DNA of 64,000 bases from an uncultured Gammaproteobacteria bacterium. Its GTDB lineage: Bacteria; Pseudomonadota; Gammaproteobacteria; Pseudomonadales; Azotimanducaceae. The stretch is taken from assembly GCA_913050035.1 (NCBI GenBank), contig CAJXAC010000002.1:20813-84812 (forward strand). The letters are read 5' to 3'. The position numbers and the translations under genes are program-made. Shown here piece by piece: positions 60,418 to 64,000 of the stretch (positions within the stretch are counted from its first letter, which is position 1; each line of letters starts with the position of its first letter). Below the pieces are notes generated by a model. The model worked only from the letters and a program-made list of their open reading frames with translations, made no database searches and was not told the origin of the DNA.

Positions 60418-60798
60418 TTATTGCTGAAGCGTCGTGCGGATCGCGCGCTGCACAGATGCCAACCGCCGCACCCACAATTGCTCCGGTGGCAGGCTCATGA
60501 TCGCGGCTACTTCGTCGCGCAGGCGCTCTGCTTGGGCTGCATCTTCGAATACCCCGTAGGTAAGCACGTACAACAAGCGCTTCTGCCCTTGCACGCGAAA
60601 ACGCGCTAATTCTTCTGGGCGCTGATGCCGTTGTGCCATACGGTCGAGCTGATCAGCATTCGATAGGGTCACCAGTTGCAGGGTAAAGGCCTTGGGGTTT
60701 TGACGCAGTAACCATTCAGCATTGCGCACGGTCTGGGCATGGGTCAAACCCATCAGGCAGCAAAGCAAAAAAATTAACCCCGCTCGACTCAGCAACAT
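60418..60798 (-). CDS. short secreted SPOR-domain protein in the damX position
   Basis: Signal peptide; AFTLQLVTLSNADQLDRMAQRHQ...LYVLTYGVFEDAAQAERLRDEV. Confidence 0.78.
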   Translation of the reverse strand: MLLSRAGLIFLLCCLMGLTHAQTVRNAEWLLRQNPKAFTLQLVTLSNADQLDRMAQRHQRPEELARFRVQGQKRLLYVLTYGVFEDAAQAERLRDEVAAIMSLPPEQLWVRRLASVQRAIRTTLQQ

Positions 60799-61889
60799 TG
60801 GCTTAGTAAGTCTCTTACAACCCCGTCATCGATATCATCCCGCACTGCAACCTCACCCAATTCACTCGCGACAATAAAGCGCAGTCGTCCATCGACAACC
60901 TTCTTATCCAAGCCCATAGCATCCATCATTGCCGCCACCGTGACGACCTTTAAGCTCTGCTGATCCAACTCAGTGGGAAGCCCAAGCTTGGCCAACAAGG
61001 CTGTTAACCGCTCTACCTTATCGGGCGCAAAACCTGCTACTCGCTGGGACAATTGTGCAGCCATGACCATGCCGATCGCTACCGCCTCGCCATGTAACCA
61101 ATGCCCATAACCACTGAGTTTTTCAATTGCGTGCCCAAACGTGTGGCCGAAGTTCAAAATGGCGCGGCGTCCGCTTTCACGCTCATCGGCACTCACCACT
61201 TTGGCCTTGATTGCACAACAGCGAACAATCACCTCGGTTAATACAGCCCCATCTTTAGCCAACAAAGCGTCGCAGCGATCTTCAAGAAAAACAAAAAGCT
61301 CCGGGTCATCAATTACCCCATACTTTACGACCTCTGCTAGCCCTGCAGCATATTCTCGCGGCGGCAAAGTCGACAACGTTGCAGGGTCCGCAAGCACAGC
61401 CACCGGCTGGTAAAAAGCCCCAATCAAGTTTTTGCCCTGAGGATGATTAACTGCTGTCTTACCACCCACCGACGAATCCACTTGGGCAAGCAGAGTCGTT
61501 GGGATTTGAATAAAGTCAACGCCGCGCTGAAAAGTTGAGGCCACAAAGCCACACAAATCACCAACAACACCGCCGCCTAGCGCAATCAGCGAGGTTGAGC
61601 GGTTATGCCGTGCACCAAGCAAAAAATCCATAGCTTGTTCATAGGTCGCCAATGTTTTAGCGCTCTCACCGTCGCGCATATGTAATACATCGACTTGTAA
61701 TCCATCCAATGCAGCGACCACCTGATCTAGGTACAACGGCCCAACGATATCGTTAGTGATAATCGCCACCTGACTGCCACGGATATGCGGGCGTAGCTGC
61801 GCCCGCAACGTCTGCGCATCAGCAAGTAAACCGTCAGCCACCAATATTGGATAGCTGCGTTGCGGGATTTCTACCATTAACTCTTGCAT
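60789..61889 (-). CDS. aroB: 3-dehydroquinate synthase
   Basis: LIALGGGVVGDLCGFVASTFQRGVDFIQIPTTLLAQVDSSVGGKTAVNHPQGKNLIGAFYQP; start refined to MQELMVEIPQ. Confidence 0.97.
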   Translation of the reverse strand: MQELMVEIPQRSYPILVADGLLADAQTLRAQLRPHIRGSQVAIITNDIVGPLYLDQVVAALDGLQVDVLHMRDGESAKTLATYEQAMDFLLGARHNRSTSLIALGGGVVGDLCGFVASTFQRGVDFIQIPTTLLAQVDSSVGGKTAVNHPQGKNLIGAFYQPVAVLADPATLSTLPPREYAAGLAEVVKYGVIDDPELFVFLEDRCDALLAKDGAVLTEVIVRCCAIKAKVVSADERESGRRAILNFGHTFGHAIEKLSGYGHWLHGEAVAIGMVMAAQLSQRVAGFAPDKVERLTALLAKLGLPTELDQQSLKVVTVAAMMDAMGLDKKVVDGRLRFIVASELGEVAVRDDIDDGVVRDLLSQCC

Positions 61890-61902
61890 TGCGCGCCTTG
61901 TA

Positions 61903-62430
61903 CTAGCCCGAAGTCCTCTGAGCCTTGATTTTTTTAGCCAACTGACTGACCAAGCCGTTAACACTCTGCTGAGCGGTGACGATTTTGACGTCGGCAATCT
62001 CCGCATACAGCGGCTCACGCTGGGCATACAATTCTTCAAGCACCTTGCGTGGGTCATCCGTTTGTAATAACGGGCGATTTCGATCGTTCTGCGTCCGCGC
62101 CACCAGCCGATCTAACGGACTATGTAAATGCACCACGAAGCCACGCTGGGCGAGCCGTTGACGATTGACATTACGCAGCACCGCACCGCCCCCCGTAGCC
62201 AGCACTATACCCTCGCGTTGACTCAGGTCATCAATAACTTGTTGCTCACGGTCGCGAAAACCCGACTCGCCCTCAACGTCGAATATCCAGGATATCGCGG
62301 CGCCTGCGCGCCGTTCAATTTCTTCATCGGAATCGAAAAACGGACAGTCTAAAACATTGGCCAACCGCCGCCCGACAGTGCTTTTGCCCACCGCCATTAA
62401 ACCAATTAAAAATATATTTTGCGTGCTCAT
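61903..62430 (-). CDS. aroK: shikimate kinase
   Basis: IFLIGLMAVGKSTVGRRLA; DSDEEIERRAGAAISWIFDVEGESGFRDRE; LATGGGAVL. Confidence 0.96.
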   Translation of the reverse strand: MSTQNIFLIGLMAVGKSTVGRRLANVLDCPFFDSDEEIERRAGAAISWIFDVEGESGFRDREQQVIDDLSQREGIVLATGGGAVLRNVNRQRLAQRGFVVHLHSPLDRLVARTQNDRNRPLLQTDDPRKVLEELYAQREPLYAEIADVKIVTAQQSVNGLVSQLAKKIKAQRTSG

Positions 62431-62542
62431 GTGGGTGGTAACAGTACTGCTTTGCAAGGTTAGTTCATAGCAATTGGCACAAAATCGTCGCCATGGATTT
62501 GCTTGAAGCAGCTGCGTGCCTCTGACCTGGCGCCACTGCGGC

Positions 62543-63844
62543 TTACTGCTCAACCCCGCGGTCAAATAAGGCACTAGACGATGGATTCGCAGTCGACAGT
62601 GTTGCTTCAGGGGTCTGCACTATTACCGGGGTAACAAATACCAACAATTCTTGCTGGTCGTCTCGCACAATGCGATGCCGAAACAATCGCCCCACTAGGG
62701 GCAATGAACTCATTAACGGCGTACGGGTTGTGCTTTGATTATAGTCCGTTTGTAAAATGCCGCCGAGCACTAAGGTTTGACCATCGGCAACGGTAATGCG
62801 TGTTTCCATTCGGTTGGTATTTATTGAGGGCACGCCGTTAAGCACTTGGCCAACGGTATCCTGCTTTATCTGCAGTCCCATTATTACTTGATCGTCTGGG
62901 GTAATCTGCGGCACCACAGCTAAACTTAGCGTCGCTTCTTTAAATGAGGTAGACGTGGAGCCACTGGTACTGACTTCCTGATAGGCAATTTCTACGCCTG
63001 ACTCTATAAGCGCGGTGGCGTTGTCCAATGTCATAATTCCTGGCCGTGCCAGCACCCTAGCCTGACCCTTGGCGACGAGGGCCGACAACTGAGTGTCTAA
63101 CCAAGCACCTCCGTGGGCACGCGTGAGTTCAAGCGTTGTTACGCCCACACCCTGTGCCAATGCGCCCGCCCCCAGCTTCACCTCTGTCTGGGCTGCAGCT
63201 GCATCAACCTCTGACCCTTGCATACGCCAACGCACTCCAAATTGCTCTGACAAGCCACTGTTAACGATGGCAATACGCGCTTCAATCTGCACCTGGCGTA
63301 ACGGCACATCAATCTGCTCAAGGGTTTTTCGCACCCACGTCAAGCGCTTGGGGACATCCGTGACGACAAGGGTATTCGTCCTTTCATCTACGCTGACCCC
63401 ACCGCGCTTGGTCAACAAACGATTGCCCTTGCCAGCGATCAGTTTGGCCAGCGCACTTGCCTGCGCATAGCGCACCTGCAGCAGGGCTGTACTCAGGGGT
63501 TCCACTTGCTGCAAATCCTTTAGATGCTGGAGTTCCGCCTGTTTCGACGCAGCAATCTCCGCAGTTGGCGCAATTAAAAGAACCTCGCCAATGCGCTGCT
63601 CTCCGAGATTATGCGCGCGCAAAACCAGATCCATGGCTTGCCGCCAACTGACTCCCTGCAAATTCACAGACAATCGGCCCGAAACTGCATCGCTGATCAC
63701 AATATTCTGGTCGGTTTTTGTGGCCAAAATCTGTAACGCGCGCCGCACGTCTATGTCTTGAAATTGCAGTGACAACGACTGCGAAAAAGTGTCTTGTGCC
63801 GACAGTGCAGCAATGAAAATCAATAGCCAGCCGCCAGCAGCCAA
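62543..63844 (-). CDS. short type IV pilus/competence secretin (HofQ/ComE-like, PilQ family), TTG start
   Basis: LSLQFQDIDVRRALQILATKTDQNIVISDAVSGRLSVNLQGVSWRQAMDLVLRA (STN domain), secretin domain ...LVLGGILQTDYNQSTTRTPLMSSLPLVGRLFRH; no AMIN domain. Confidence 0.9.
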   Translation of the reverse strand: MAAGGWLLIFIAALSAQDTFSQSLSLQFQDIDVRRALQILATKTDQNIVISDAVSGRLSVNLQGVSWRQAMDLVLRAHNLGEQRIGEVLLIAPTAEIAASKQAELQHLKDLQQVEPLSTALLQVRYAQASALAKLIAGKGNRLLTKRGGVSVDERTNTLVVTDVPKRLTWVRKTLEQIDVPLRQVQIEARIAIVNSGLSEQFGVRWRMQGSEVDAAAAQTEVKLGAGALAQGVGVTTLELTRAHGGAWLDTQLSALVAKGQARVLARPGIMTLDNATALIESGVEIAYQEVSTSGSTSTSFKEATLSLAVVPQITPDDQVIMGLQIKQDTVGQVLNGVPSINTNRMETRITVADGQTLVLGGILQTDYNQSTTRTPLMSSLPLVGRLFRHRIVRDDQQELLVFVTPVIVQTPEATLSTANPSSSALFDRGVEQ

Positions 63845-64000
63845 CAGCCAGCAGAGGGCAGGCAGTGGCCATCAGAAGCCAGCCAGCAGCCTACAGTGAA
63901 TAGCCATCGCCTAGGGGCTATGAGCCAACAGTTAATGGCCAGCACTAAACAGCTGACAGCTGGCAGCCAGCAGTCAGCAGCCATCGGGCAGCAGCCAACT
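63822..64000. repeat. degenerate heptanucleotide tandem repeat array, consensus ARCAGCC, continues past window end
   Basis: Parsing in 7-bp steps from 63822 gives AATAGCC AGCCGCC AGCAGCC AACAGCC AGCAGAG GGCAGGC AGTGGCC ATCAGAA GCCAGCC AGCAGCC TACAGTG AATAGCC ATCGCCT AGGGGCT ATGAGCC AACAGTT AATGGCC AGCACTA AACAGCT GACAGCT GGCAGCC AGCAGTC AGCAGCC ATCGGGC AGCAGCC AACT, with no phase slip. Confidence 0.9.

Follow-up and report, generated by a model that had tools for sequence, protein, structure and literature searches.

A decayed heptanucleotide array in place of the pilQ start at the end of a draft contig

The window, a 64,000-nucleotide stretch of draft genome G000, ends in a degenerate tandem array of 7-bp units, probably a pre-existing, decayed heptanucleotide array that was joined to the secretin gene pilQ, either in vivo or by chimeric assembly. 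The array is a further case of the known heptanucleotide repeats, and it is most likely explained by an error of assembly or by a repeat of a common kind at a breakpoint, rather than by a new genetic device. A function of the array is unlikely; no evidence of one was found, and no regulatory or structural function is proposed. The features of the locus are listed in Table 1.

Table 1. Features at the pilQ locus and orthologous sites of a second heptamer array (positions in the window unless a genome and contig are given).
Feature	Position	Strand	Basis
aroB, 3-dehydroquinate synthase; listed frame begins upstream of likely start	60789..62057	-	TIGR01357
aroK, shikimate kinase; listed frame begins upstream of likely start	61903..62574	-	PF01202, NF003456
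pilQ (secretin), 433-aa frame; start codon and charged signal-peptide N-terminus replaced by the array	62543..63844	-	TIGR02515, PF00263, comparison with G004
Native pilQ signal-peptide codons reading as about 2 repeat units; putative seed or joining site	63821..63837	-	CAATAGCCAGCCGCCAG on +, aligns with CAACAGCCAGCCGCTAG of G004
Array proper, about 23 degenerate heptamers, consensus ARCAGCC, noncoding	63838..64000	.	Lag-7 autocorrelation, unit table, without counterpart in G004, ends with contig C2
(RGGTGCT)n orthologous sites	G000:C114 and C118, G002:C115:21521, G004:C43:74008		

The 7-bp register over 63822-64000 is real, as the earlier note had proposed. Autocorrelation gave an identity of 0.55 at lag 7 against a background of 0.24 (mean of 179-base stretches of the window, sd 0.035), and nowhere else in the window did it exceed 0.36; the lag-7 excess on which that note had made its claim depend is thus present. 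Identity at lags 7, 14, 21, 28, 35, and 42 was 0.55, 0.55, 0.57, 0.51, 0.55, and 0.53, respectively, and it stayed at 0.48-0.64 up to lag 105. The mean over lags 7-42 was 0.542, compared with a top value of 0.379 for periods 4-12 in 5000 dinucleotide shuffles. The stretch comprises 25.6 units and, as had been reported, carries substitutions with zero indels. The majority unit AGCAGCC (ARCAGCC if A or G is allowed at position 2) is matched by 128 of the 179 bases, and the 51 departures consist of 31 transitions and 20 transversions. The units are 24-28% off consensus, the longest near-exact run spans about three units, and neighboring units are no more alike than random pairs, so that likeness is flat. 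Either old age or a maintained register had been suggested; the divergence supports old age, whereas the likeness of neighbors is that expected of independent point mutation and gives no hint of maintenance. Tandem Repeats Finder, which had been recommended as a check, detected the array only as a 55-bp piece (63837-63891) with a 21-bp unit, i.e., its first third, because the rest is too degenerate. The array contains unusual 24-mers such as GGCAGGCAGTGGCCATCAGAAGCC. Stops within the array in the pilQ frame rule out a coding reading and bear out its presumed noncoding character. The genome-wide search for further (ARCAGCC)n arrays proposed earlier, carried out by pattern searches, yielded no second array of this unit in G000.

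The gene into which the array runs is pilQ, with a TIGR02515 score of 387 bits, above the cut-off, and a match to Secretin PF00263. The nearest relative with the locus is G004, in which PilQ is 93% identical and pilQ is intact, beginning MVNRVRLKPSGWLLIFIA. The alignment of the window with G004 holds up to CAATAGCCAGCCGCCAG (63821-63837; CAACAGCCAGCCGCTAG in G004) and stops there, and from 63838 on the array substitutes for the pilQ start. These 17 native bases account for two and a half units at the left end of the array as originally delimited; the register thus extends over 63822-64000, but the array proper covers only about 63838-64000. The native site matches the repeat at 13 of 14 positions and is the only place with at least 12 of 14 in the 3.5-kb pilQ-pilM region of G004, and matches of this quality occupy 0.03% of positions in the rest of the window. 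In G004, the native unit AACAGCC is a perfect repeat unit. The anchoring of the array at the most repeat-like spot nearby fits a similarity-guided join, made in the cell or by an assembler, or growth from a seed.

The window corresponds to G000:C2:20813-84812, and contig C2 has 84,812 bases, so that position 64000 is its physical end. The array had been described as running off the window; it does reach 64000, but it therefore runs off the assembly and not only off the window, and this assembly shows it, without its right flank, up to 64000. G000, which appears to be a metagenome-assembled genome, is a draft of 120 contigs that is 92% complete. When the G004 stretch was used as a DNA query, a facing contig, C14, was found that resumes inside pilM. 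Its first approximately 60 bases are unrelated to pilM, and one frame of this tip (RVNQISGVTVNMPQFLTD) weakly resembles a flavin monooxygenase of a relative. Both tips that flank the pil gap thus switch to alien sequence; the C14 tip differs in sequence from the array and is connected to it by no contig, and both breakpoints carry ATAGCC plus GC. Other contigs of the same draft behave in a comparable manner. C114 and C118 both cover an (AGGTGCT)n array beside a gene that we take to be dsbA-like, with clearly different flanks, and the right tip of C118 turns into sequence of lower GC that reads like a hisF end; the G000 assembly therefore contains foreign tips and a mixture of strains. Perfect heptamer arrays terminate contigs elsewhere in the genus (G005:C39, G005:C42, and G023:C70), and at least eight arrays in the genome collection sit at contig ends. 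A chimera test based on open reading frames at 46 contig tips had a mixed outcome. The left ends of C19, C20, C27, and C28 of G000 have a GC content of 0.31-0.45 over their first 800 bases, compared with approximately 0.52 in other contigs, and these are possibly foreign contigs or islands in the draft.

The placement of the array in the pil/hof-aro locus, where pilP would be expected, was correct. Past the pilQ start of G004 follow a gene of 249 aa, which overlaps this start and takes the pilO/P position, one of 184 aa where pilN would lie, then pilM, and finally a divergent ponA, with an interval of about 2.3 kb between pilQ and ponA; of the first three, only pilM has a family match, and the other two are named by position. 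No array was found at the pilQ locus of G004, and it is likewise absent from the sister loci. The missing pil genes were not found on other contigs of G000, and approximately 1.9 kb is absent from the assembly. The array is not supported as a feature of the locus: it has no counterpart in G004, begins within pilQ codons, removes the start, and sits on a contig tip whose partner begins with alien sequence. In G002, the operon was lost by a real deletion within a 33-kb contig, and G001 is also without these pil genes, which makes a true rearrangement in G000 quite possible. The G002 deletion (L066, G002:C78:1-4000, at about 1069-1078) removed pilM, pilN, pilO/P, and most of pilQ; its joint, a shared 5-bp GGCAA, lies at about codon 350 of pilQ and connects this gene with the ponA promoter. 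A Pfam search for PilP was uninformative, as it gave nothing in the control genomes, and the PilB (pilus ATPase) cut-off was passed by no genome of the subgroup, G004 included, and does not discriminate a living pilus. The pilQ-aroK spacer of the window (about 62446-62511) holds one copy of a block reading LLQANPWRRFCANCYELTLQSS, which is a tandem duplicate in G004 and occurs as three similar tandem copies in G015.

Between G000 and G004, pilQ has a dS of 0.31 and a dN of 0.031 (ratio 0.10) and is under purifying selection; ponA is similar (0.35 and 0.023). With G015 as outgroup, the pilQ branches over 407 codons carry 34 silent and 10 replacement changes in G000, and 22 and 12 in G004. The ratio and the branch counts therefore give no sign of a pilQ that has long been dead. 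Less divergence would be expected of an array that arose here after the split, and decay of a pilQ that had been disabled for so long. The array looks too decayed for a recent birth at pilQ, and, on the assumption that its mutation rate is close to the silent rate, it either predates its arrival at pilQ or does not truly lie there. These results bear on growth in place, in which the native CAATAGCCAGCCGCCAG would have served as a slippage seed for an array that grew in this lineage and destroyed the pilQ start. Such growth would account for the start of the array at the region's closest match to the repeat, where G004 already has a perfect unit. It is nonetheless unlikely, because the divergence of the units faces so few silent changes on the G000 branch of a pilQ without relaxed selection, because fresh slippage would make neighboring units more alike than distant ones, and because the alien tip of C14 and the missing pil genes are left unexplained. 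Birth in place from the two-unit pilQ seed by error-prone expansion that wrote degenerate units from the start is very improbable; if true, it would mean that heptamer arrays can look old while young.

The preferred explanation is that of a pre-existing array. It would have been born elsewhere through replication slippage, would then have decayed by independent point mutation, and would finally have been joined to pilQ where the signal-peptide codons resemble two units, presumably by way of 14-17 bp of similarity. This explanation is weakened by the fact that a start exactly at the native seed is also predicted by growth in place. Also against it, no donor array was found in G000, the genus, viral contigs, phages, or plasmids, so that an origin of this particular array from a virus, phage, or plasmid was rejected. 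We tentatively lean toward a join made in the computer, i.e., a chimeric contig tip in a strain-mixed draft, over a join in the cell; the assembly artefact that the earlier note had named as refuting its claim is thus one of the two leading readings. The in vivo form, which is included in the preferred explanation and is by itself rather doubtful, would be a recent deletion or insertion between pilQ and pilM that captured the array at its breakpoint and cost the locus the pilQ start, both genes named by position (pilO/P and pilN), and the greater part of pilM. The real deletion in G002, the lack of the genes in G001, and the ATAGCC plus GC at both breakpoints argue for it, but both breakpoints are contig ends, with no contig joining the array to the dissimilar C14 tip. 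That the array acts as a regulatory or translational element upstream of pilQ, comparable to the TAACTGA repeats of Beggiatoaceae, or as a phase-variation tract, is exceedingly unlikely. It does lie directly upstream of the remaining pilQ with its register kept, and many TAACTGA sets occur just upstream of start codons (PMC4679880). However, the array does not precede the start codon and the charged signal-peptide portion but stands in their place, is absent from the sisters, and is the single array of its unit in the genome. An RNA hairpin was also rejected, as folding on the minus strand was not clearly beyond that of column-shuffled arrays (24 of 400 fold as well), and no RNA family match to the array was found. 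The case advises caution, as a repeat that lies where a draft contig ends can mimic a gene control region and yet be foreign. If the join took place in the cell, it would add to the recurrent losses of the pilMNOPQ operon in this genus, here at a repeat-like seed.

Heptamer arrays, those of the ARCAGCC unit included, are widespread, and the unit is not special. The pattern GCCARCAGCCARCAGCCARCAG occurs in at least 119 stretches from many phyla in the genome collection and is carried by 32 viral contigs, and ARCAGCC-unit arrays are also present in closed plasmids and chromosomes. In Xanthomonas (L182) and Lysobacteraceae (L189), the likeness of neighboring units is as expected of recent slippage. 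Degenerate arrays of the ARCAGCC unit with flat unit likeness were observed in L180, L151, L131, and L146 (Planctomycetota, Bacteroidales, and Flavobacteriales drafts); slippage with ongoing turnover does not explain this flatness, error-prone expansion would, and it poses a small question on how such arrays expand. An (RGGTGCT)n array that is close to perfect and flanked by a conserved ATTATT(A/C)TGCCGCTCTG occupies one orthologous place in three species with differing copy numbers, and its unit recurs at several places in G005 (G005:C26, C39, and C42). A (GCCAAAA)4 array (L070, G000:C64:14382-14412) lies just upstream of the start codon of an aldehyde dehydrogenase-looking gene.

Cyanobacterial STRRs form families in which one unit is present in many dispersed copies. 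The earlier note had likened the array to them, and both are tandem heptanucleotides, of which three are described from Calothrix PCC 7601 (STRR; cited in PMC4692102); ARCAGCC-unit arrays also occur in cyanobacterial drafts, e.g., Tychonema (L192 and L204). In contrast to the many dispersed STRR copies, G000 has one array of the unit, and the likeness holds only for bacterial heptamer repeats in general. Among long-unit repeats, heptamers form the most frequent class in most bacterial genomes, and polymerase slippage has been proposed to cause them (PMC4679880, PMC4692102). The LSSR with 7-nt units of Mrazek et al. (2007), as presented in PMC4679880 and PMC4692102, resemble the array in their tandem 7-nt units in noncoding DNA, here in register beyond chance (0.54 vs. 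at most 0.38 in 5000 shuffles). As presented there, LSSR are defined by runs longer than expected, whereas the array is degenerate, is seen by a standard finder only in its first third, and, unlike LSSR, covers a gene start at a contig end. GGGAATC-type heptamers of Xanthomonas and Nostoc form G-quadruplexes and number well over a hundred dispersed copies (PMC4692102). They are likewise heterogeneous noncoding tandem heptamers, with substitutions and length variation (PMC4692102), but the ARCAGCC unit has no run of three G. TAACTGA direct repeats of marine Beggiatoaceae number 169 sets in one genome; most sets have two to six copies, most lie immediately before start codons, and a translational or regulatory role was proposed for them (PMC4679880). 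They share 7-nt direct repeats and, up to rotation, the purine/pyrimidine pattern with the array, which, unlike these sets, is long, degenerate, and replaces a start codon; instead of a recurrent position a few bases upstream of starts, there is a single array over the lost pilQ start. RRYRRYY, which links ARCAGCC, TAACTGA, and several arrays of the genus, was rejected as a rule for heptamer arrays because the (AGGTGCT)n and (AGCATGC)n classes are also common in the genus; a reversed control was useless, as the pattern is its own mirror image up to rotation. As in chimeric contig tips, the homology of C2 to relatives ends at a short similar stretch near the contig end and is followed by unrelated sequence, where G004 continues into the next pil gene, and the same assembly contains other foreign or strain-mixed tips (C14 left, C118 right, and the diverged C114 and C118). 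C118 behaves like such chimeric tips, and for C2 a chimera is a candidate reading.
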